A DNA stretch of 64,000 bases from Spirosoma sp. 48-14 (GCF_001898575.1 NZ_MKUD01000031.1:1035-65034); one strand, 5' to 3'. Shown: positions 1 to 13,930, counted from the stretch's first letter. The notes: generated from the sequence alone by a model not told the origin. Numbers and translations: made by a program.

Positions 1-1925
1 GACCAGCCAACGGTAGGTATTAGCTCTCCAGCCAATAACGGTACGGCAACCACCAGCCCAACGGTTTCAGGTACAGCAACGCCCGGCAGTGTAGTAACGC
101 TGACCGGACCGGGTAACCAGACCCTGTGTACGACCACGGCTTCGGCTTCGGGTACCTATAGTTGTCCGGTAAGTGTACCGGCAGGCCCCAACAGCATCAC
201 AGCGGTGGCATGTAACGTGGGTGGCTGTTCAACGCCGACAGTAAGCAACTTCACGGCGGTGGGTCCGCCCAGTCTGACGGTCGTGCAACCACCAACCGGA
301 GGCACTACTCAGCCAATTACGGGTACGGCGACGCCAGGTAGTACGGTAGCTATCACGGGCCCAGGGAACACCACTTTGTGTACGACCACGGCATCAGCCT
401 CGGGCACCTTCAGTTGTCCGGTGAGCATACCGACGGGTGTTACGCCTTTGACGGTGACAGCCTCGGGGCCGGGTGGTACCACGACGGTGCCCATAACCGT
501 AACCGCGACGCTGGCAACGCCCTGTACGCCACCTATTCCTGGGCAGGTTATTGCGGCTGCGACTAGTCCGCTTGTCGTCAATAGCAGTACGAACTCCTTT
601 AGCTACATTAGTGGTAATAGTGGAACGAGCACAAGGTGGTTCATTGTACCGTCAACAACGGCATCACCCAATAGTGGTACAGGAACGGTAACCGGAAACA
701 TAACCTTCCTGAATGCTGGCTGGTATCAGGTGATTTTTGAAGAGACCAATAGTAATCAACCTGTAGGCTGTTCTATACCCGGTACTGTCCAATCATCACT
801 GGATGTTTATATAAGCCCACCAGTTGTACCGTGTGCAAGTCCAAGTTCGAGTACGGTATTGGTAACGCCATCGAACGGGGCTGTGGCCATTGGAGGAACC
901 GCTAGTTTCTCGTTGACAGGAGGGCAGCCTTACCAAAACGTACAGTGGCAGATAGTACCCAGCACGGGAGCTACGCCCCTTGTCGGAACGGGTAGTACGG
1001 CTACTGTGACCTTCAGTCAGCAGGGGTTGTACCGGATCGTCTTTACGTTGACCAACGCAGGTGATTTAACCTGTATACCGGTACAAAGCGTTAGCTCGGC
1101 GTTAGTGGCGGTTGGCTTAAATCCCTGTGCGACGCCATCACCCATTACGATCGTCAATACGACGTCTTCGTCGGGAACTGCCGCTGCTGGAACAACGCAG
1201 ACGTTCCAGGCTGTGGGTGGAATTCCTGGACAACTGGCCTGGAAAGTATATCCAACAACCGGCGTATCCAGTGTGAGTGGTATAGGTGGTACAGCGACAA
1301 TCACGTTCTCACAAGCGGGTAATTATGTCGTTACCTTCCTGTCTGTCAATAGTTCGCTGCCGCTGGGATGTACCATGCCAACCGGACTGGCAAGCAATCT
1401 TGGGATCACGATTGTTAACCAGCCTACGGTAGCCATCACCTCCCCAGCCAACAACGGTACGGCCACAACGACGCCGACGGTTTCAGGTACGGCGACACCG
1501 GGTAGTGTGGTGACGCTGACAGGTCCGGGTAACACCACCCTGTGTACCACAACAGCCAGCGCATCAGGTACGTATAGCTGCCAGGTGAGTGTACCGGCAG
1601 GTCCTTCCAGCATCACGGCTGTAGCTTGTAACACAGGCGGCTGTTCGACACCCGTAGTGAGCAACTTCACAGCGGTGGGTCCGCCTAGTTTGACGGTAGT
1701 TCAACCACCAGCCGGGTCTACCACGCAGCCGATTACGGGTACAGCGACACCGGGTAGTGTCATTGTGATCACCGGGCCGGGTAACACCACCCTGTGTACG
1801 ACTACGGCCTCTGTGTCGGGTACTTTCAGTTGTCCGGTAACGGTTTCTACGGGCGTAACACCGGTAACGGTAACAGCCTCGGGGCCGGGTGGTACCAGCA
1901 GTGTTCCGTTGAGCCTGACGGCCAC
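1..1925 (+). repeat. Internal Ig-like repeats; about 500-bp block at 1-510 closely repeated at 1420-1925, with three related units between
   Basis: Both blocks encode near-identical SPANNGTATT(S/T)PTVSGTATPGSVVTLTGPGN.TLCTTTASASGTYSC...GPPSLTVVQPP runs. Confidence 0.8.
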
Positions 1926-3009
1926 GAATGCGCCTACAGTGATTATTGCTGGACCTCCTGGTGCTATTCTGACCAATAGCCCAACGGTTTCGGGGACAGC
2001 CACACCGGGTTCGCTGGTCACGATTGTTGGCCCGGGCAATACGACCTTGTGTACAACGACCGCTGCCGTGAACGGCAATTATGCCTGTACGGTGAATCTG
2101 CCAACGGGTCCGACTACCCTGACGGCTATTGCGACCAACGGCGGAGGAACGGGTACGGCAACGACAACCGTCACCGTGACGGGATTACTGGCCAGGGTTT
2201 ATTTGCAGGGCGCTCTGATCAATACCCCTGTTGCGGGCAGGATGCGGGATGACCTACGGGTTAAAAACCTGATTCCGACCACAGAACCCTATACGAGTCT
2301 GGGCTTTACCCAGATAGGTGGAGGGGGAGGAGAGGCCATCGCCAATCCATCGGGTGTCTTTGCGGTAACGGGTGCCAATGCTATTGTCGACTGGGTGCTT
2401 GTTGAACTTCGGGACGCCAATGCCCCTGCAACCATCGTTGCTACCCGATCCGCCCTGGTTCAGGCTGATGGCGACATTGTCAGCGTTGATGGAACCTCGC
2501 CCGTAACGTTTGGACAGGGTGTGACACAAGGCACTGCTTACTACGTGTCGGTACGCCACCGTAACCACCTGGGAGCGATGACCGCATCGCCGGTGTCAAC
2601 AACAGCCCCAACGGCACCAGTTGTTGACTTTACCAACGCAGGAACACCTGTTTATCAGTATCCAGTGGGGAATATACTTCGCTCAACGGCTCCGTTAGCG
2701 ACTCAGGATGGCTTGCCAGCCTTATGGGCCGGTAATACCCTCAAGGATAATCAAGTGATATTCCAGGGACCTAGTAACGATGTAGACCCGATCTTCTTCG
2801 ATGTATTGGGCGATCCAGGCAATACCGGCGGATTCAGTAATTACATCCGCAATAATGTCTATACGGTGAGTGATGTGGACATGAACGGTCGGGTAATCTT
2901 CCAGGGGCCATCCAATGAAGTGGATACCATCTTCTTCGAGATTATGACCCATCCCGATAACGTCGTCAATCAGTACGTCAACTTCATTATCCGTCAGCAG
3001 CTTCCCTAA
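1..3009 (+). CDS. Large secreted/surface repeat protein with bacterial Ig-like repeats, C-terminal dockerin/EF-hand-like tandem module; 5'-truncated by window start
   Basis: Frame 1 is open from base 1 (DQPTVGISSPANNGTATTSPTVSGTATPGSVV...), so the ATG at 205 is internal. Repeated TATPGSxVxITGPGNTTLCTTTASxSGT(F/Y)SC units; C-terminus VIFQGPSNDVDPIFF...DVDMNGRVIFQGPSNEVDTIFF. Confidence 0.85.
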   Translation, partial: DQPTVGISSPANNGTATTSPTVSGTATPGSVVTLTGPGNQTLCTTTASASGTYSCPVSVPAGPNSITAVACNVGGCSTPTVSNFTAVGPPSLTVVQPPTGGTTQPITGTATPGSTVAITGPGNTTLCTTTASASGTFSCPVSIPTGVTPLTVTASGPGGTTTVPITVTATLATPCTPPIPGQVIAAATSPLVVNSSTNSFSYISGNSGTSTRWFIVPSTTASPNSGTGTVTGNITFLNAGWYQVIFEETNSNQPVGCSIPGTVQSSLDVYISPPVVPCASPSSSTVLVTPSNGAVAIGGTASFSLTGGQPYQNVQWQIVPSTGATPLVGTGSTATVTFSQQGLYRIVFTLTNAGDLTCIPVQSVSSALVAVGLNPCATPSPITIVNTTSSSGTAAAGTTQTFQAVGGIPGQLAWKVYPTTGVSSVSGIGGTATITFSQAGNYVVTFLSVNSSLPLGCTMPTGLASNLGITIVNQPTVAITSPANNGTATTTPTVSGTATPGSVVTLTGPGNTTLCTTTASASGTYSCQVSVPAGPSSITAVACNTGGCSTPVVSNFTAVGPPSLTVVQPPAGSTTQPITGTATPGSVIVITGPGNTTLCTTTASVSGTFSCPVTVSTGVTPVTVTASGPGGTSSVPLSLTATNAPTVIIAGPPGAILTNSPTVSGTATPGSLVTIVGPGNTTLCTTTAAVNGNYACTVNLPTGPTTLTAIATNGGGTGTATTTVTVTGLLARVYLQGALINTPVAGRMRDDLRVKNLIPTTEPYTSLGFTQIGGGGGEAIANPSGVFAVTGANAIVDWVLVELRDANAPATIVATRSALVQADGDIVSVDGTSPVTFGQGVTQGTAYYVSVRHRNHLGAMTASPVSTTAPTAPVVDFTNAGTPVYQYPVGNILRSTAPLATQDGLPALWAGNTLKDNQVIFQGPSNDVDPIFFDVLGDPGNTGGFSNYIRNNVYTVSDVDMNGRVIFQGPSNEVDTIFFEIMTHPDNVVNQYVNFIIRQQLP

Positions 3010-3069: not shown

Positions 3070-6000
3070 ATGAAATACAGATATCTATACCTTTTCGCGC
3101 GGATGCTGCTTTGGGTAGTATTATGTCCGCTGAGTGTATTAGCCGCTACACCGGTCAAATTTAAAATTGATCGGGACGCCACCGGAACCTACCGGGTGTA
3201 CATGACCTCGACCACTTCGTATACGGGTACTCAGGCCCGCATTGCCACGGCCCAGGTGACGGTACGGGTACCGACGGGCACCTTTTCCAGCTTACCGCAG
3301 GGAACAGGCTCGCCAACGGTTACGGGTTATCAGAGTATGGGGTGGACCGCGTCTACCCGTGTAAATGCCCCCTCCGAAAATCCTGGGGTTGATTATATCT
3401 CCTTTGGCTTTAGCCAGTCGGCAACCCCTACGTTGTTTACGATTCCGGCGAACACGGATATACTGCTGTTTTCATTTTCGGATAACGGCAACTGTCCGGG
3501 ATCGATTCAGCTCTGGTCATCGACCGATCCGTTTCAAGGGGTATCGACCAGCACAAATCCCGGGAACCAGATCACAATTCTGGGGAATGGGGGGGATGCC
3601 TACGGCGGGAACTATGGGAGTGCAACAACCTGTGGCGCCCCAGACCTGGTATCCAGCGTGGGGCCTGTTCCGACCCTAACGGCCGGGCAGACGTCTAGCC
3701 TTCCCGTTAGCCTGAGCAATATCGGTACAGCGCCAGCAACAGGGCCCATCAGCTTTGTGACGGTGTTGCCTACGGGTATCAGCTCGCCGTCCAGCTTTTC
3801 CAGCAACGGCTTTGGCTGCACAACCAGTGGGCAGACTGTAAGCTGTAGTAATCCGAATACGCTGGGTGCCGGTAGTCAGATTGGTTTTGTGATTCCCATC
3901 ACGCCGAGTACCAATGCCGTTGGGACAACCCCCGTTTTTTCGGGTACCGTGTCAACCCCTACGGTCGAGAGCAATACCACCAATAACACGGCTCCACCCG
4001 TATCGGCCCCTTCGCCCGTTCAGCAGGTATCGCCAGGCTGCGTAGCAACGGACTGTAATACGGGCGTTCGCTACGGCTTAAAGTTAGGGGCCGATGGTAT
4101 TACCTACACCGTCTATATGAAGTCGGCTACGGCATATTCCGGTGCGCAGGCCCGCATTGCTACGGCTCAGGTAACGGTTAATCTGCCAGCTGGTACGCAA
4201 ATTACCAACCTGCAAAACTTACAGGTTGGTATGAGTTGGGTAATGAATGCCCGGGTAAATACCCCCGCTGAAGCAACGAGCCGTGATTATGCCTCGTTTG
4301 GGTATAGCCAGAGCGCCAGCCCAAGTTTGTTTCCGATCGGATCGAATGTCGAAATTCCACTCTTCAGTTTTCAGCGGGTTGGGGCCTGTACAGGTGCCAT
4401 CAGTTTGTGGAATACAACGGACCCCTTCCAGGGCGTATCGACAACCACGAATCCCGGTAACCAGATGACCATTCTGGGCAATGGCGTTGCCAATGCCTGG
4501 ATGTGCAACTATACCTGCCCGGTTGTTTGCCCGGCCCCAGTACTCAGTCTGGTCAAGCAGGCTCCGGCCAGTATCACCCAGAATACACCGTTCAGCTATA
4601 CATTCACGGTGTCCAATAGCGGAAATCTGGCAACCAGTGGGCCTATCACCGTGTCGGACGTACTACCGGCTGGCCTTCAGTTTGTAACGGGTGGCGGGAA
4701 TGGCTGGACCTGTTCGGCAGCTGGCCAGTCGGTTAACTGTACGAGTTCCGTACCCATTGCGGCAAGCGCCAGCAGTAGTTTTTTACTAACGGTAAACCCG
4801 ACATTAGCTGGCACGGTCCTCAATAATGCGACAGTGAGTGGAGGGGGTTCAACTACAGTAACCCCATCGCAGCCCTGTGCCGTATGCCCACCTGGTTCAA
4901 CAACGGCCATTGTCAACCTTCAGCCATCCGACCTGGCGTTGTCGATCAATCAGCCGGGAACCTTGATTGCCGGGCAGGCAAGTCCATTGACGCTTAACCT
5001 GACCAATATACTGGCAGGGATCGCCAGTGGTCCCCAGACCATCACGTTAACCCTGCCAACCGGAGTTAGTGCGCCTTCGACCTTTACGGCTACAGGGGGC
5101 TGGGGCTGTTCAACGACAGGCCAGAAGGTCGTTTGTAGTACAGCAACCAATCTGGTCAATGGACAAACGATAACGCTGACAGTCCCCGTAACGCCATCCA
5201 GCTCGGTTATCGGTACTACGCTTGTATTCAGCGCCACGGCGGCAGCGTCCAGTACGGAAACAAACCTGACCAACAATACCGCCACCATTACGACCTACAC
5301 GCCCGTTATTGGCAGCGATCTGGCCTTGACATTCGGCACCCTGCCCACGTTAGTGCCTGGTCAGAATGGCTATCTGCCCCTGATCATCACCAATGTTGGT
5401 CCGGCAACAGCGCCCGAAGCCCTAACCCTGGCCGTCACCTTGCCCGCTGGCATTTCCCTCAATCAGGCGGCTTTACCGGCAGGCTGGTCGCTCGTGAGTA
5501 GTTCGAACGGGCCAAATGGGACCACCATCGTTACGCTGTTGAATGCAAACAGCGGATCACTGCCAAGTGGAAGTAGCCTGACGCTGAATCTCCCTATTTC
5601 CATTGGAGCCGGTACGTCGGGCACGGTCAATTTCCTGGCTACGGTAACCCCGGTAACTTCTGAAACGAATACGGCCAACAATACCGCCACAACATCGGCT
5701 ACGCTGGGATCGCCTGATTTACAGACCTCGATTAGCGGCCCAAGCCCGGCATTGGTCGTTGGACAATCGTCTACCATCACCGTTACGGTACAAAATGTAG
5801 GTAATGCGACCGCAACAGGTCCGATTACGACCCGGATTACCATTCCGGCAGGCTATGCCATCAACCAGGCAGCCATTCCCGCCGGATGGACGGTCCAGTC
5901 GATCACGACTAACCCGGATGGAAGTACAACGCTGACATTGGTTAATAGCGTCAGTTCGCTGGCACCGGGCCAGAGCATTGCCTTCAGCCTGGGGCTGACC

Positions 6001-9000
6001 CCAAGTCCTCAGGTAGCCAATGTGACAGGAGTTATTTCGGCAACAGCGATTCCCGTATCGGGAGAAACCAATACATCCAATAACGTAAGTAGCCTACAGG
6101 TCACACCCGTTGCGGCCAACATTGTAACCAACCTGACGCTGCCGACCCAATTTACGGCCGGGCAGCCGTCCAGTGCTACGATTACCTTCACCAACACGGG
6201 GACCAGTGGCTACACAGGACCGTTGACGGCTCAGATAACGCTGCCGAGTAGTGTGACGGTGGGCGCACTGCCTCCAGGCTGGACGTATACGAATCAAACG
6301 TTGAATGGGAATGGGACCATCACCTACACTATTACCAATCCGAATGTCAGTCTTCCAGTCGGTGGTAGTACAGTCGTTCTGTTGCCGCTAACCCCTGGAA
6401 GCGGTTTAATCGGTCAGCAATTGCCCGTGACGGTAATTACGCCGACGATTCCCTACATCCCAGGAACCGTTTCGACCAGTACACAGAGTAGCCCGGTGGT
6501 GGCTCCAGCGGCCCCCAATGTTATTGTCGTGATTGGGAACCCAACGCCACCGTTGTCGGTCGGTCAAATCTCGATTATTCCCATTACGTTCACCAACATC
6601 GGTAACGCGACAGCGAATGGCCCGATTAGTACAACCATTAGCTTGCCAGCGGGTGTTTCGATTGTCGCTGGTCAATTACCAGCCGGTTGGGTAATCAGTG
6701 GAACGACTTCCGGTCCCAATGGCAGTACGATCTATACGCTGACCAATCCGACGGCCTCAATACTCGCCAATGGAGGGCAGCTCGTGCTGAATCTGCCCGT
6801 CTTTACCAGCCAGCCAGCCGCCGGAACAACGCCCTCGATCGTGGTTATCATACAACCAGGAGGTCAGACGATACCGGGCTCCGCTACCAACGTATGTACG
6901 ACGATTACCGCGCCGAATATGGTGCTGACCGTTGGCCAGCCTACACCCGCCTTGGTGGTCGGGCAGACGTCTATCTTACCGGTTACTATCCAGAACATTG
7001 GCAATGGAGCGGCTTATGGTCCGCTGACCGCTCAGGTAACGCTTCCGGCTGGCGTTTCGCTCAATCAGAGCCAGTTAACGTTACCAGCTGGCTGGACGCT
7101 GACCAGCAATGTGCCCGGCCCAGGCGGAACAACGGTTCTTGTGTTCAGCAACGCGAATGCCTCTGGATTTGCGCCCGGTAGTTCGGTCGTTCTCAATCTG
7201 CCGATCACGCCAAACGCATCGACTGCCGGATTGACGATACCCTTTAGTGCCACCCTGTCGCCTGTTCTGGGCCAAACCACGGGCGCTACGCAGACAATCT
7301 ATGCGCCGGTACAAGCCGCTCCGGTTGCCGACCTGACCATTAGTGGGGGGCAGCCGCAGCCCAATCTGGTTGTGGGTCAAACCTCCGTTTTCCCGATAAC
7401 GATCCAGAACGTGGGCAATGCCGCAACGAGTGGCCCGATCTCCTTCCAGATGGGTTTACCGGCCGGGGCAACGATCAATACGGCTCAGTTACCCGTAGGC
7501 TGGACGATCCAGTCACAGGTGCCACAAGGGAATGGGACTGTTGTAACCCTAGTGAACTCAAGCCTGGTTTTGGTGCCGGGGCAAAGCACTACGGTCAATG
7601 TTCCAGTTATTCCAGCGGGCTCGCTGGCGAATGCGTTACTCACGATAGGGTTATACGTTAATCCGGCCACGGGCGAAACCAATCTGTCGAATAATTCAGC
7701 GACCATTGTTACAACCGTTCCCGTTCAGCCAGCACCCGCTCCTGATTTAGCCGTAACGATACCTTCGCAATCGTTTACTCTGGCGGTGGGGCAAGTCTCG
7801 AATGTCGCGTTTAACGTTACCAACATTGGGAATGGAGCCGCAACAGGTCCGTTAACCCTCCAGTTTTCGATGCCAACGGGCTTCAGCACCCAGCCGACAT
7901 TCTTCTCGACGGGGGGATGGGGATGTGCCAGCACAGGCAGTGTGGTATCCTGTACCAATGCGAGTGGTTTGGGCATAGGCGCATCGTCGGCCCTGATCGT
8001 TCCGGTACTTACAACGGCAACAGCGGGTGGTCTTATCAATCCGACATTTGCCATCACTGTTGCTCAGGCTACGGGTGAAACGGTGTTGTCCAACAACATT
8101 GGCACCATCAATTATGTGGGTACAGTTGTGGCTGCTGATCTGGCTATTAGCTTTCCAAGCCAGTCCTTCACCTTGACAGCCGGGCAGGTATCGTCGGTGT
8201 TGCTTCAGGTGTCTAATGTGAGCCCCTGGGCGTCGGCGCCGGGCCCACTATCGGTAACCCTGGCCATGCCCGCTAATTTCTCGACAGCTTCCAGTACGTT
8301 CACGACTAATGGCTGGACGTGTTCGTTAATCGGTACGGTTGTGGGTTGTACCACCTCGGCTAGTCTGACAGCCGGTGCATCGACTACCCTTGCCATTCCG
8401 GTTGTTCCCCTGGCGGCTGCCGTTGGCTATTCGAATCTGACGTTTGGCGCTGCCGTGGCCCCGGTACAGGGCGAAACCAACCTGGCGAATAACATAGCGT
8501 ATCTGAACTATGTGGGCAGTGTGCTGCCGGGAGGGGTTGTATTAGCGGTCAAAGCCCTGTTACAGGGAGCCTATGACCCGTCGACGGGACTCATGCAGGA
8601 TAAGTTAAGACAGAAAAACCTGATTCCATTGGCTCAGCCTTACGGAACCGTGGCAGGTGGTAATTCGGTCTATACATTTATCAATAGTGGCAACGAGACC
8701 ACCACTTCGGCTATCCTGTCGCTTACGGGTGCCAACGCCATTGTCGACTGGGTAATGGTTGAGCTTCGGAGTGCGGCCAACCCGCAAACGGTAGTGGCTA
8801 CCAAGCCAGCTCTCATTCAGCGGGATGGAGACATTGTAAGCTCTGTCGATGGTGTTTCGCCATTAACCTTGCCGAATCTGACAAGTGGGTCTTACTACGT
8901 GGTTGTACGACACCGGAATCACCTGGGTGTGATGTCGGCTCAGCCGATTGCCCTCTCCAACAGCGCTTCTACCGTCGACTTTACGAATATGGCGAACGTA

Positions 9001-9339
9001 TATAAGCGACCGGGTGCCGGCAACTATCCTGAATACATCCAGAATACGAAGGCGATGTTATGGGCTGGTAATACAGATGGCGATACACAGGTGATCTTCC
9101 AGGGACCCAATACCGATGTCGATCCAATCTTCTATCGGGTGATGGCCGATCCTGCCAATACGGGCTTTATCGCCAACTATATCGCGTCCGGCTATGATGT
9201 GACCGACGTCAATATGGATGGTACGACCATTTTCCAGGGACCAACCAATGAAGTAGACACTATTTTCTTCAATGTGGTCGGTCACCCAGACAATACAAAC
9301 CTATTAGCCAATTTCATTATTCAGCAACACTTGCCCTAA
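3070..9339 (+). CDS. Giant secreted protein: signal peptide, two copies of shared beta-rich N-terminal module, about ten CARDB/DUF11-like repeats, C-terminal dockerin/EF-hand-like tandem module
   Basis: 2089-aa ORF; N-terminal hydrophobic signal; repeated LVVGQxSxxxVTxxNxGNAxATGPxT units; C-terminus matches the preceding gene. Confidence 0.9.
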   Translation: MKYRYLYLFARMLLWVVLCPLSVLAATPVKFKIDRDATGTYRVYMTSTTSYTGTQARIATAQVTVRVPTGTFSSLPQGTGSPTVTGYQSMGWTASTRVNAPSENPGVDYISFGFSQSATPTLFTIPANTDILLFSFSDNGNCPGSIQLWSSTDPFQGVSTSTNPGNQITILGNGGDAYGGNYGSATTCGAPDLVSSVGPVPTLTAGQTSSLPVSLSNIGTAPATGPISFVTVLPTGISSPSSFSSNGFGCTTSGQTVSCSNPNTLGAGSQIGFVIPITPSTNAVGTTPVFSGTVSTPTVESNTTNNTAPPVSAPSPVQQVSPGCVATDCNTGVRYGLKLGADGITYTVYMKSATAYSGAQARIATAQVTVNLPAGTQITNLQNLQVGMSWVMNARVNTPAEATSRDYASFGYSQSASPSLFPIGSNVEIPLFSFQRVGACTGAISLWNTTDPFQGVSTTTNPGNQMTILGNGVANAWMCNYTCPVVCPAPVLSLVKQAPASITQNTPFSYTFTVSNSGNLATSGPITVSDVLPAGLQFVTGGGNGWTCSAAGQSVNCTSSVPIAASASSSFLLTVNPTLAGTVLNNATVSGGGSTTVTPSQPCAVCPPGSTTAIVNLQPSDLALSINQPGTLIAGQASPLTLNLTNILAGIASGPQTITLTLPTGVSAPSTFTATGGWGCSTTGQKVVCSTATNLVNGQTITLTVPVTPSSSVIGTTLVFSATAAASSTETNLTNNTATITTYTPVIGSDLALTFGTLPTLVPGQNGYLPLIITNVGPATAPEALTLAVTLPAGISLNQAALPAGWSLVSSSNGPNGTTIVTLLNANSGSLPSGSSLTLNLPISIGAGTSGTVNFLATVTPVTSETNTANNTATTSATLGSPDLQTSISGPSPALVVGQSSTITVTVQNVGNATATGPITTRITIPAGYAINQAAIPAGWTVQSITTNPDGSTTLTLVNSVSSLAPGQSIAFSLGLTPSPQVANVTGVISATAIPVSGETNTSNNVSSLQVTPVAANIVTNLTLPTQFTAGQPSSATITFTNTGTSGYTGPLTAQITLPSSVTVGALPPGWTYTNQTLNGNGTITYTITNPNVSLPVGGSTVVLLPLTPGSGLIGQQLPVTVITPTIPYIPGTVSTSTQSSPVVAPAAPNVIVVIGNPTPPLSVGQISIIPITFTNIGNATANGPISTTISLPAGVSIVAGQLPAGWVISGTTSGPNGSTIYTLTNPTASILANGGQLVLNLPVFTSQPAAGTTPSIVVIIQPGGQTIPGSATNVCTTITAPNMVLTVGQPTPALVVGQTSILPVTIQNIGNGAAYGPLTAQVTLPAGVSLNQSQLTLPAGWTLTSNVPGPGGTTVLVFSNANASGFAPGSSVVLNLPITPNASTAGLTIPFSATLSPVLGQTTGATQTIYAPVQAAPVADLTISGGQPQPNLVVGQTSVFPITIQNVGNAATSGPISFQMGLPAGATINTAQLPVGWTIQSQVPQGNGTVVTLVNSSLVLVPGQSTTVNVPVIPAGSLANALLTIGLYVNPATGETNLSNNSATIVTTVPVQPAPAPDLAVTIPSQSFTLAVGQVSNVAFNVTNIGNGAATGPLTLQFSMPTGFSTQPTFFSTGGWGCASTGSVVSCTNASGLGIGASSALIVPVLTTATAGGLINPTFAITVAQATGETVLSNNIGTINYVGTVVAADLAISFPSQSFTLTAGQVSSVLLQVSNVSPWASAPGPLSVTLAMPANFSTASSTFTTNGWTCSLIGTVVGCTTSASLTAGASTTLAIPVVPLAAAVGYSNLTFGAAVAPVQGETNLANNIAYLNYVGSVLPGGVVLAVKALLQGAYDPSTGLMQDKLRQKNLIPLAQPYGTVAGGNSVYTFINSGNETTTSAILSLTGANAIVDWVMVELRSAANPQTVVATKPALIQRDGDIVSSVDGVSPLTLPNLTSGSYYVVVRHRNHLGVMSAQPIALSNSASTVDFTNMANVYKRPGAGNYPEYIQNTKAMLWAGNTDGDTQVIFQGPNTDVDPIFYRVMADPANTGFIANYIASGYDVTDVNMDGTTIFQGPTNEVDTIFFNVVGHPDNTNLLANFIIQQHLP

Positions 9340-9347
9340 GGATCAGC

Positions 9348-9377
9348 CTGTTGGCTCCATTCAGGGGCCAACAGGCC
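9348..9377 (+). terminator. Hairpin terminator after giant repeat gene
   Basis: cctgttggct...ggccaacagg inverted repeat just after the stop codon. Confidence 0.55.
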
Positions 9378-9410
9378 TGACCTGAAACGGCAAATAACCA
9401 GCTTTTTATT

Positions 9411-10235
9411 ATGAAAATCCCTTTCAAAAAATTCGGATTCGTGCTGACGTTAGCCAGTGTTAGTCTGGTGGCTCAGGCACAGGTGAAATTTAAGTTAACC
9501 CGTACCGATGATGCGACCTACACGGTCAGTATGGTGCCTCAGCAAACGGTTCCCGACCGCCTGGCCATTACCGGCACCATGCAGGTCAGTATGAAAATCA
9601 AAGCATCGGAAGGTTTTGAATTAGGTGGTATAACTTCCCTACTCCCCAGTGTTGAATGGGATAAAGGAACGCTCATCAAAAGCCCGGAAGGCGCTCGTGA
9701 CTTCGATTATCTGTCTATTGCTCTGCAATCGATGGCGACACGGGGATTGGCTTACAAGGCAGATGAAGAAGTTGCCCTATTTTCCTTCCACAATGTCGGC
9801 AATCCGGTTTCGTCGATTCAGCTATTGGAGAACGATTCCGATCCACTGGTTAAATCCATTACCAATCGATTCAATGTCCAGAACCACATCAGTGTGCTTG
9901 GATTTGGCCAAAAGAACGCCTATACCGGCAATTTGGCGGACGACTCCCCAACCAGCCTGAAAATTGGCCTGCGACGCCTGTTTCCTAACCCAGCCAATAA
10001 TCAGGTAACTGTTCAGTGGTCGAATTTCATCAATGGATTTGAGGGGGAGGTAGAGCTGGCTATTGTTGATGCGGGTACTGGTCGGGTACAAACTCGCCAT
10101 AAAGCTTATATGAACGCCGGAAACAATGAAACCTCCATTCCTGTAGCCCAACTCCCGGAAGGACACTACCTCATTCAACTGGAGAAAGGTGGACGCCAGG
10201 TGGGGCAGGGACTTAAACTGCTAATCGCTCGCTAA
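9411..10235 (+). CDS. Secreted protein with shared N-terminal module and T9SS type A sorting domain
   Basis: Signal peptide; VKFKLTRTDDATYTVSM module; C-terminal LRRLFPNPANNQVTVQW...LPEGHYLIQLEKGGRQVGQGLKLLIAR. Confidence 0.85.
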   Translation: MKIPFKKFGFVLTLASVSLVAQAQVKFKLTRTDDATYTVSMVPQQTVPDRLAITGTMQVSMKIKASEGFELGGITSLLPSVEWDKGTLIKSPEGARDFDYLSIALQSMATRGLAYKADEEVALFSFHNVGNPVSSIQLLENDSDPLVKSITNRFNVQNHISVLGFGQKNAYTGNLADDSPTSLKIGLRRLFPNPANNQVTVQWSNFINGFEGEVELAIVDAGTGRVQTRHKAYMNAGNNETSIPVAQLPEGHYLIQLEKGGRQVGQGLKLLIAR

Positions 10236-10236
10236 A

Positions 10237-10273
10237 AACGATAAGGGAGACTGTCAAAGCCTCCCTTATCGTT
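10237..10273 (+). terminator. Hairpin terminator
   Basis: aacgataagggag...ctcccttatcgtt, 13-bp perfect stem. Confidence 0.65.
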
Positions 10274-10313
10274 CCAACTAGTTACCAATTCAGGTATAAA
10301 ATTTCAACGTATC

Positions 10314-12356
10314 ATGCATACAATTCGGCTGGGTTTCGGCACACTATGGCTGTTGATCCTGGGGCTAACATCGGCCTTTGGTCAAGTTAAATTTAGAGTA
10401 GGCATCGACTCCGATAAAGTCACCTATCGGGTTTATATGACCTCAACAACCAGTTACACAGGCAATAATGCCCGGATTTCTACATCTCAGGTAACTCTTT
10501 TGGTGCCCCACGGGATGGGTAGTAATCAGTTCATGGTTAATAACCTTACCGGCAAGCAGGTAGGATCAAATCAAATGGCATGGAGCCTCAATGCGCGCGT
10601 AGATGCCCCTACGGAAAATCCTGGTGTCGACTATCTGTCGTTTGGGTTTAGTGGTAGTGCCAGTCCAGTACTCTTCGATATTCCGGCCAATCAGGAAATC
10701 GAACTCTTTTCATTTAAAAATACAGGTGCCTGCTTAGGGATTGTGAGTTTGTTTGAGAACAATACCGACCCATTTCGAACGCCTAATTCCCGCAATACGA
10801 ACCCAGGGAATCAGATGACCATCCTGGGGCATGGACCTGGTAATACGTACGTTGGAAATTACGGGAGCGGTGCTTCGTGCTCCAGAGCAGTACCGGATTT
10901 AACGGCGTCAATTTCCGGGCCGTCCAGTTTAACGACGGGTAATTCGGGCAACTATGTCGTAACTGTAAGCAATGTCGGTTCTGCTTCGAGCGCCGGGGTA
11001 ATCTCCGTTAACATGCTCATACCGGCAGGCTTAACCTTTACCAGTGCCACTGGGTCTGGCTGGAGTTGCACAACGGGTAACCCATCCGCTGGAAGTCAAC
11101 CCGTAAGTTGTACCAGTGCAGCCGTTTTAGCCGTAAGCGCTACGTCGAGCTTCACGCTTAATACGATTGCGTCAGCTTCATCAGCAATCACAACCACCCT
11201 CTCCGGCTCTGTGAGTGGCGGAGGAGAAACGAACTTGACAAACAATACCTTTAGTCAGCCAGTAACCATACAACCGGTAAGTTCAGGTGCCTACGATTTA
11301 AGTTTGGCCATCACAGCCCCGAGCTCGTTATCGTCGGGCGGTACGGGGAACGTCGTGTTAACGGTTACCAATGTCGGTACAGGGTCGTACATAGGGAGCA
11401 CCACCATAAAAACATGGCTTCCTACCGGATTTACCTACAACGGGACCTCTACTTCTGGCTGGACCTGCAGTTCAGCCAATCAACCCAATCAGGTAGAAGT
11501 CACGTGCACAACGTCACAGTCTGTTGGCGCAGGAGCCGGCTTGCCTCCTGTACAACTTTCTGTGACAGGGGTAAACTCGGGAACGTCGGTTATACAGCTA
11601 CCCGTAAGTGGAACATTGATTGTCGGCGGTGGCAACGATAACCCTTCGAACAATTATGTCTACTGGCCAATCAGTATTCTTGGAAACCCAACCAAGCCTG
11701 TTAGCGCTACCGCCGATTTATCGACCACCGTGAAGGTAACCAACTCAGCCCCCAACCAATATGAATCGGTACAGGCAATCATCGTGGTAACCAATACGGG
11801 TCCTAATTCGGCCACTGGTATCACCTCAAAAGTAACGATACCTTCAGGCTATCCTGTTGTTTCCTATACGGCTTCGGGCGGTACCTTTTTGTCCGCTACC
11901 GGAATTTGGAATGTAGGGAGTCTGGCAGCGGGCCAGAGTGTAACCTTGACCGTTACCTTGTCGGCCAATACGGAAGGGGTAGCCAACATCAGTAATGAGA
12001 TTATCACCTCCGGGCAGTATGATCCAGATTCAACGCCGAACAACCATGTTGAGGGGGAAGATGATCAGGCCCAAAGCTGTTTTTCCGTTCCGATCGTGTT
12101 ATGCCCAGGCCAGGCCGTTGAAACCAGTGTTCCTGGCTCGTTAACGGCTATTCAGTGGTACCGTAATGGACAGCCTATTCCACAGGCTACCTCCGCTACG
12201 CTAACGATTACGCAGGAGGGCACCTACACGGTCATGACGAATGTAAGCTGCCCTTCCAGTGGGTGCTGCCCGTTGATCGTTCGCATGAATCCGGCCGGAA
12301 GCTGCTGCCAGCCAGTACAATGTGTTCCCTTTGTTGTCAGGAAAAAAAGCCGGTAA
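10314..12356 (+). CDS. Secreted DUF11-repeat protein with shared N-terminal module and C-terminal Ig-like segment
   Basis: 680 aa; signal peptide; VKFRVGIDSDKVTYRVYMTSTTSYTGNNARISTSQVTL; DUF11-like NTGPNSATGITSKVTIPSG. Confidence 0.85.
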   Translation: MHTIRLGFGTLWLLILGLTSAFGQVKFRVGIDSDKVTYRVYMTSTTSYTGNNARISTSQVTLLVPHGMGSNQFMVNNLTGKQVGSNQMAWSLNARVDAPTENPGVDYLSFGFSGSASPVLFDIPANQEIELFSFKNTGACLGIVSLFENNTDPFRTPNSRNTNPGNQMTILGHGPGNTYVGNYGSGASCSRAVPDLTASISGPSSLTTGNSGNYVVTVSNVGSASSAGVISVNMLIPAGLTFTSATGSGWSCTTGNPSAGSQPVSCTSAAVLAVSATSSFTLNTIASASSAITTTLSGSVSGGGETNLTNNTFSQPVTIQPVSSGAYDLSLAITAPSSLSSGGTGNVVLTVTNVGTGSYIGSTTIKTWLPTGFTYNGTSTSGWTCSSANQPNQVEVTCTTSQSVGAGAGLPPVQLSVTGVNSGTSVIQLPVSGTLIVGGGNDNPSNNYVYWPISILGNPTKPVSATADLSTTVKVTNSAPNQYESVQAIIVVTNTGPNSATGITSKVTIPSGYPVVSYTASGGTFLSATGIWNVGSLAAGQSVTLTVTLSANTEGVANISNEIITSGQYDPDSTPNNHVEGEDDQAQSCFSVPIVLCPGQAVETSVPGSLTAIQWYRNGQPIPQATSATLTITQEGTYTVMTNVSCPSSGCCPLIVRMNPAGSCCQPVQCVPFVVRKKSR

Positions 12357-12361
12357 ACGAC

Positions 12362-13930
12362 ATGCGCCCCTGTCAGAGACGTAGAAACTATGTTGGCCTA
12401 CTGGTTCTGGGCTTCTTTATCAGTATTTCAGCACAGGCGCAGGTATACTTACGCCTGGCGCTGGATGCCGATGGAATGACTTATAAAGTTTACATGCGTT
12501 CGACGACAGCCTATTCAGGACGGCAGGCTTTACTAAGCACAGCTCAGGTTACCCTGGCAGTACCCCACGGCACAGGCTCTAATCGGTTTGAGGTAACGGA
12601 TTTGACCTCGCCCATTGCATCGATGCACTGGCTTCAGAAAGATCGTGTCGATGCGCCAATCGAGGAGCCTCTTAAGGATTATTTGTTTTTTAGCTTTATT
12701 AACAACAGTAATCCGCTTGTGGCTTTTGATATTGCGGCCAATACCGATATACTTCTGTTTCAGTTTAAGCGCAAAGGGAATTGCCTAGGGCGAGCCGAGC
12801 TACTGGATAATCAAACAGACCCCTTTCGAACGCCCAATTCAAAAGGCATCAATGTAGGCAATAGTGTTTCCCTGTTAGCTACTTCAGGGAATGCCTATTT
12901 GGGTAATTTGGATAAACTGCCTTCATTGACGCTAAAAGCAACAGAATTGATCTGTGTTGGTCAGCCAGTCGAACTGCTAGCGGTGGTTTCGGGCTCAGAA
13001 CCACTGGCAACGTACCAATGGTTCGTCAATGGGAAGTCAATCAGTGGGCCATCGGGGTCTCCCCGGTTCACGTATTATTTCCCGTCCGGATTGGCCGGTA
13101 ATTGGGTCGACATTCAGGTTGTGGGGACACTCAAAGGATCATCGGCTTGTGATGAGCGGAGTGTAACTGCGCATGAGAAGCGATTTGTAAAACCAGTACC
13201 AGCCGCGACATTGTCGGTAAAGGGCGACACCTGTGCGGAGCTGCCCATGACGCTGGATACACCATTCATTCCCCAGGCAAGTTATCAATGGTATGCTGAT
13301 ACGCTACCTATTTCAAGAGCTAACCAGGCTGCGTATGCGGTAAAGCAGAGTGGAAACTATTCCGTTAAAGTAACTATTGAGGGCTGTTCCAATTCATCAC
13401 GGACGATAGCACTAATTGGCATTAAGGCGGCCGATCGAATTGAGATCTCTGCGCCAGCCTCCCAAACATTGATCGCCGGTATGGCTGTACCAATGAATGC
13501 ACGTGTAAGTAATGCCAATTCATACCATTGGCTGCCTGCCAGCGGACTTAGCTCTCCTACTATAGAAAACCCGGTGGCCAACCCAACTCAAACGACTACC
13601 TATACCTTAACCGCTCAAAATGACTCCGGTTGTGTTGTAAGTGACACGATTCAGCTTTTTGTTATGCCCGGCTTATACATGCCATCTGCCTTTTCACCGA
13701 ATAACGATGGGGTCAATGACAGTTGGTTAATTGAAAATCTTGAATATTATCCAACAAGTCAGGTTACGATCGTAAACCGATGGGGCGTCATTATTTATTC
13801 GCAGAGAGACTATCATAATGCCCCCTGGAATGTACAAAATCAGGGACGTGAAATCGACTCGGGTATTTATTATTACTCAATTCGAACGCCATTTTCGTAC
13901 CAGACCGGAACTATAACAGCTATAAAATAA
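12362..13930 (+). CDS. Secreted Ig-like protein with T9SS type B (gliding motility-associated) C-terminal domain
   Basis: Start corrected to ATG 12362 (MRPCQRRRNYVGLLVLGFFISISAQAQ signal) rather than 12263; C-terminal MPSAFSPNNDGVNDSWLIENL...VTIVNRWGVIIYS...GIYYYSI. Confidence 0.85.
   Translation: MRPCQRRRNYVGLLVLGFFISISAQAQVYLRLALDADGMTYKVYMRSTTAYSGRQALLSTAQVTLAVPHGTGSNRFEVTDLTSPIASMHWLQKDRVDAPIEEPLKDYLFFSFINNSNPLVAFDIAANTDILLFQFKRKGNCLGRAELLDNQTDPFRTPNSKGINVGNSVSLLATSGNAYLGNLDKLPSLTLKATELICVGQPVELLAVVSGSEPLATYQWFVNGKSISGPSGSPRFTYYFPSGLAGNWVDIQVVGTLKGSSACDERSVTAHEKRFVKPVPAATLSVKGDTCAELPMTLDTPFIPQASYQWYADTLPISRANQAAYAVKQSGNYSVKVTIEGCSNSSRTIALIGIKAADRIEISAPASQTLIAGMAVPMNARVSNANSYHWLPASGLSSPTIENPVANPTQTTTYTLTAQNDSGCVVSDTIQLFVMPGLYMPSAFSPNNDGVNDSWLIENLEYYPTSQVTIVNRWGVIIYSQRDYHNAPWNVQNQGREIDSGIYYYSIRTPFSYQTGTITAIK

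Follow-up and report, generated by a model that had tools for sequence, protein, structure and literature searches.

A divergent cohesin/X-dockerin-like module pair predicted for giant surface proteins and T9SS anchors of Spirosoma

The window analyzed here is a stretch of 64,000 nucleotides (C31:1035-65034) from an 8.7 Mb genome of Spirosoma, a soil-type bacterium, and all positions are counted within it. Four consecutive co-directional genes, separated by short gaps (Table 1), each encode a signal peptide (assigned by eye) that is followed directly by a module named here MOD. An earlier note on this DNA had described one module in five copies across these genes, and an iterated HMM recovered all five at 159-212 bits, two in the first gene and one in each of the other three, which confirmed the counts per gene and located the copies. 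The identity to copy 1 is 57, 31, 58 and 47% for copies 2 to 5 in window order, and this similarity is far above chance since even the weakest copy reached E = 1.2e-10 when searched by tblastn against the whole genome. The C-termini diverge as the note had claimed: a 264-aa region named TAIL, a T9SS type A domain (TIGR04183), a CVP-CTERM motif (NF058574) and a T9SS type B domain (TIGR04131), in gene order. The giant open reading frame upstream of the four genes also ends in TAIL and has no MOD in the part that lies within the window. Dockerin-like tails had been reported beside the module, and this was correct for the 2089-aa protein and for the upstream reading frame, which lies beyond the range given in the note, but such tails are absent from the three short MOD proteins. 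When tested with TIGR04183 and TIGR04131, the 274-aa and 522-aa proteins scored as T9SS substrates and the TAIL giants did not. Moreover, three further clusters in the same genome (C1, C77 and C86) repeat the partnership of MOD and TAIL.

Table 1. Features of the MOD/TAIL locus, in window positions
Feature	Position	Strand	Basis
Giant Ig-repeat (Big_6/Big_13) protein	1..3009	+	open-ended ORF, 5' end outside window; Pfam Big_6
TAIL of upstream giant (X-like half and dockerin-like half)	2188..3006	+	HMM residues 730-1002, 349 bits
2089-aa giant: signal peptide, MOD1, MOD2, DUF11/CARDB repeats, C-terminal TAIL; no T9SS signal	3070..9339	+	
MOD copy 1 (candidate cohesin-like module)	3145..3630	+	HMM residues 26-187, 177 bits; 2089-aa protein
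MOD copy 2	4057..4527	+	HMM residues 330-486, 177 bits; 2089-aa protein
TAIL of 2089-aa protein	8545..9336	+	HMM residues 1826-2089, 365 bits
Dockerin-like half of TAIL, duplicated EF-like loops	9043..9336	+	internal repeat; hhalign vs PDB dockerins
274-aa protein: signal peptide, MOD, T9SS type A sorting domain	9411..10235	+	PF18962 E 4e-9, TIGR04183
MOD copy 3	9474..9950	+	HMM residues 22-180, 159 bits; 274-aa protein
680-aa protein: signal peptide, MOD, DUF11 repeats, putative CVP-CTERM sorting motif	10314..12356	+	NF058574
MOD copy 4, copy folded by AlphaFold2	10377..10877	+	HMM 212 bits; 680-aa protein
CVP-CTERM motif (CVPFVVRKK), putative	12303..12347	+	NCBIfam residues 664-678, 20.5 bits vs cut-off 19
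522-aa protein: signal peptide, MOD, Ig-like domains, T9SS type B sorting domain	12362..13930	+	PF13585 E 1.8e-18, TIGR04131
MOD copy 5	12434..12925	+	HMM 183 bits; 522-aa protein, start ATG 12362 as in the note
T9SS type B sorting domain (CHU_C)	13673..13927	+	end of 522-aa protein

The CxPxxIxKxKR ends of MOD proteins, in the window and in loci L048, L016, L069 and L099, match the putative CVP-CTERM family NF058574, and this putative motif belongs to the MOD/TAIL cluster. Such ends were called from NCBIfam together with the C-terminal motif, since a CVP HMM came to match Ig repeats upon iteration and its hits were dropped. Shorter variants of the CVP-type end (CKPICVPITI...RRR) are not called by NF058574.

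TAIL is made of an Ig-like half, whose motif is VDWVxVELR...HRNHLG, and a second half with internally duplicated EF-like loops. The family form of the second half is LWAGN..D..VIYQG..ND..I / GDVNMDG.VI.QG..ND..IF, which reads LWAGN..D..VIFQG..TDVD..I / DVNMDG..IFQG..NEVD..IF in the 2089-aa protein with a terminal IIQQHLP, and TAIL ends in a strongly conserved Q-[QEH]-[LI]-P. The internal repeat had a mean z of about 10.8 (z above 3 in 44 of 45 homologues) and, together with the loop and helix pairs of the AlphaFold2 model, gives the two duplicated EF-hand-type segments by which dockerins are recognized. Compared by hhalign with four PDB dockerins, whose sequences were read off PDB alignments, the dockerin-like half matched in the expected register (P 5.7e-5, prob 66; one comparison of three tried). 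However, the canonical 12-residue loop DxNxDGxIxxxD is replaced in TAIL by loops about 4 residues longer, the extra residues standing between positions 8 and 12 (DVNMDGTTIFQGPTNEVD). Pfam PF00404 (Dockerin_1) gave no match for the window TAIL or in its own genome and reached one of 45 TAILs at E 0.12, which places TAIL outside this Pfam family, and the sequence-profile match of full TAIL to X-DocII had a P of only 0.019. The Ig-like half itself is present in many Bacteroidota genomes, and elsewhere in the phylum it is followed by ordinary dockerin repeats with canonical loops, for example GDVNQDGNINSTDLSTW or EDLNLDGIVDNVDISFF; Dockerin_1 appeared at the expected place in 4 of 10 such relatives, with E values (0.0025-0.03) below the curated cut-off. 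Judging from motifs and model, TAIL is probably an X-module and dockerin-like dyad with putative calcium binding.

In the case of MOD, Pfam, NCBIfam, PDB profile and hhalign searches found no Pfam or PDB sequence relative, PF00963 (Cohesin) was matched neither in the own genome nor among the top families for 84 MOD sequences, and hhalign against three PDB type II cohesins gave E 0.66; hence sequence homology between MOD and cohesins is not detectable. The AlphaFold2 model of copy 4 (84 natural homologues; pLDDT 94.5, pTM 0.90) was compared by Foldseek with 350,542 PDB chains, and every one of the top 8 matches was a cohesin or a cohesin-like module, type II in most cases, among them 4fl4_B, 4wi0, 2jh2, 5k39, 2b59, 3ghp and, as the best, the type II cohesin 3fnk (E 5e-3, prob 0.97), with a modest E value and TM of at most 0.42 for MOD alone. 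A fold unlike a binding module would have spoken against the earlier note, and the retrieval of cohesins ahead of all other chains was in its favour. We also obtained weaker matches of the MOD model to carbohydrate-binding modules (CBM3-type entries). These would suit a different explanation, in which MOD and TAIL work independently as beta-sandwich adhesin modules on external ligands (glycans, surfaces or other cells) and the clustering is that of co-inherited adhesin genes, and so would the giants, in which scanning found only Ig, DUF11 and cadherin-like repeats and no enzyme domains. A cellulosome-like enzymatic complex was set aside because the scanned giants lacked enzyme domains.

When both modules were modelled in one chain, as a natural 448-residue stretch from locus L054 (pLDDT 85.5, pTM 0.71), the three best PDB matches were the CohI9-X-DocII chains of CipA (4fl4_C, 4fl4_I and 4fl4_L, E 8e-8 to 2e-6). 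The alignments ran end to end over about 420-441 columns with a low overall TM (about 0.3) and the residue mapping not displayed; a low TM is expected if the domains are hinged differently. Many isolated cohesins followed further down the list with TM (target) of 0.45-0.54. The arrangement typical of the X-DockerinII dyad, an Ig-like X module before the dockerin and both in the same order after the cohesin, was thus found at Foldseek E 8e-8. We presume on the strength of these models that MOD is, with somewhat better than even chances, a highly divergent cohesin-like module.

The rules of architecture were derived from 44 loci of family genomes. MOD starts at residue 18-69 in all 113 MOD proteins, TAIL lies at the extreme C-terminus in 67 of 69 TAIL proteins, and a T9SS type A or B signal was present in none of these 69. 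All MOD and TAIL genes share a single strand in 43/44 loci, and whenever a gene of the cluster lay within 400 bp downstream of a TAIL gene, it encoded MOD (64/64, median gap 72 bp). The usual order is TAIL-only giant, MOD-TAIL giant, MOD-T9SS A, MOD-CVP and MOD-T9SS B; the same gene set exists in L099, a contig labelled Flavobacterium sp. SUN052, and shorter versions exist in two other genomes of the class. Such architecture could also mean that TAIL is a third kind of T9SS C-terminal domain, a sorting or secretion signal, while MOD is an unrelated N-terminal adhesion module and the operon merely shared: TAIL occupies the C-terminal slot, is never combined with a type A or B signal and has a conserved end, and the giants otherwise have no known secretion signal. 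The duplicated dockerin-like unit in the second half, with ordinary dockerins in the relatives, argues against a sorting signal, as do two proteins in which TAIL is not terminal (L065, described next, and L124, described below).

The only clearly internal TAIL seen was in the L065 ORF 14848-19104, where a full TAIL (residues 538-796) stands mid-protein in an RHS-repeat/DUF6443 context. TAIL or MOD-TAIL genes were broken by apparent frameshifts or an in-frame stop in L051 (14304-16058 and 13758-14213), L080 (6876-12175) and L050 (1577-7869), and genome G216 has one TAG inside TAIL; these could be assembly errors or decay.

Among 223 family genomes, MOD was present in 54/55 genomes with full TAIL, in 3/40 with the Ig-like half only and in 15/128 with neither form (Fisher p 8e-35 for full TAIL and 0.57 for the Ig-like half alone, with genome relatedness not corrected for). 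Therefore, MOD tracks the dockerin-like form of TAIL and not the Ig-like half. The earlier note had proposed co-occurrence of the two modules in other genomes as a check, and the 54 genomes, as well as the adjacency of the genes in the 44 loci, support it. Spirosoma panaciterrae, to which the genome of the window is close, was found to have a MOD 94% identical to that of the window. The sole full-TAIL genome without MOD was G180 (L124, ORF 7043-11521, minus strand), where 195 residues follow TAIL and the terminus resembles T9SS type A by eye, which is expected if other TAIL proteins need a partner for anchoring. With TAIL presence tracking MOD presence, and TAIL placed before an end that looks T9SS-like in L124, we regard the sorting-signal explanation as unlikely. 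The 15 genomes with MOD and no TAIL match would suit independent adhesins; against these stand the near-perfect adjacency and order of the genes, the tip-to-base rules of architecture and the coupling of MOD specifically to TAIL in its dockerin-bearing form, and we consider independent adhesins more unlikely still. In one genus of the family (G134-G141) each genome had a single weak MOD match (E about 1e-12 to 1e-16), mostly without any TAIL, which may be a related but different module.

Further, the distances of MOD and TAIL were correlated over 37 loci (Mantel r 0.91) and over 16 loci within the genus (r 0.93). Such parallel divergence fits co-evolution and also linkage; as linked genes are inherited together, the correlation is not taken to prove contact, and the co-occurrence, too, could stem from joint inheritance of the cluster.

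In Bacteroidota genomes without MOD, we picked X-dockerin loci blind to their neighbours (L111-L121, L125 and L126, with one further locus cut by a contig end), and in 12 of the 13 judged the next gene encoded a short (327-442 aa) T9SS type A or B protein. One of these partners had a sub-threshold Pfam cohesin match (E 0.016) and the others had no Pfam cohesin match, and hhalign found no tie of their N-terminal domains, which matched no recognized family, to cohesins or MOD. It is conceivable, and we put it forward tentatively, that across Bacteroidota signal-less X-dockerin proteins pair with short T9SS proteins encoded next to them, on which divergent cohesin-like modules form the socket, that this couple lets the partner export or anchor the giants, and that Spirosomaceae link them serially into fibres encoded by gene order. 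The same neighbours bear on a variant compatible with the plug-and-socket reading, namely that the giants pass the T9SS pore as passengers of short MOD-T9SS proteins that have already bound TAIL in the periplasm. The giants have no T9SS signals and the smallest partners consist of MOD and a type A signal only, as piggyback secretion would have it; however, we found no precedent for such giant passengers, and the data are equally compatible with capture at the surface. We hold this route to be improbable.

From the computational results on modules, predicted folds, architecture rules, clustering and co-occurrence, we predict, as the probable reading, a divergent cohesin/X-dockerin system in which TAIL plugs the signal-less giants into the MOD sockets of T9SS anchors. 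Giant Ig/DUF11-repeat surface proteins, themselves devoid of a T9SS signal, would carry TAIL as a plug at the C-terminus, short type IX-secreted anchors (T9SS type A, type B or CVP-CTERM) would carry MOD as a socket at the N-terminus, and through the binding of TAIL to MOD the giants would be held at the cell surface. The predicted binding and its calcium dependence are drawn by analogy from the known behaviour of the cohesin and dockerin families. Giants with both modules may act as links chained in series, so that the gene order (TAIL-only, MOD-TAIL, MOD anchors) may spell out a fibre assembled head to tail, tip first and base last. LPS is the attachment site of T9SS type A proteins, and type B proteins seem to bind to PorP-like ones (PMC9143113); the three short MOD proteins would thus serve as sockets at the surface. 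As for the outer membrane, the giants might cross it and be captured outside, be exported piggyback, or use TAIL as a signal; we infer this route, the polymer order and the adhesive role in the same conditional way. If the reading is true, Gram-negative Bacteroidota use a plug-and-socket principle, missed by Pfam, for adhesive surface fibres, which would explain the surface retention of giants without a T9SS signal and offer a source of new orthogonal binding pairs.

Cohesin-dockerin coupling is best known from anaerobic cellulosomes, and cohesin-dockerin systems outside cellulosomes are also known. No description of the Spirosomaceae MOD/TAIL system or of X-dockerin/T9SS neighbour pairs was found in the literature searched. 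MOD/TAIL is filed here as a variant of a known system that would work like cohesin/X-dockerin; neither module falls into the corresponding Pfam family. The closest likeness is to the clostridial type II cohesin/X-DockerinII system (CipA with SdbA/OlpB; PDB 2b59, 4fl4, 4wi0): the predicted MOD fold retrieves cohesins first, Coh-X-Doc follow in this order in one chain, the X-like Ig half is followed immediately by a duplicated dockerin of the calcium type, a W-x-G-[DN] motif marks the X/Doc junction, and the cohesin is on anchors with the dockerin on a long scaffold. In contrast to CipA, MOD has no detectable sequence homology to cohesins, the dockerin loops of TAIL have about 4 more residues, anchoring is by T9SS signals instead of S-layer domains, and the giants bear Ig-type repeats and no enzymes. 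In Cloacimonadota (Ca. Stygibacter), a cohesin scaffoldin with a T9SS-type CTD was described, and secreted dockerin-bearing proteins were proposed to dock on cohesins so anchored (PMC8542988), as we presume for TAIL and MOD; there, the cohesins and dockerins are recognizable by InterProScan and the dockerin cargo is hydrolases, whereas in the Spirosoma cluster neither family is recognized and the cargo is adhesin-like giants. SprB-type giant adhesins (PMC9143113) are likewise giant repeat-rich Bacteroidota surface proteins that need T9SS, but SprB has its own type B signal and a PorP/SprF-like protein, whereas the giants here bear TAIL and only a separate MOD protein carries a type B signal.
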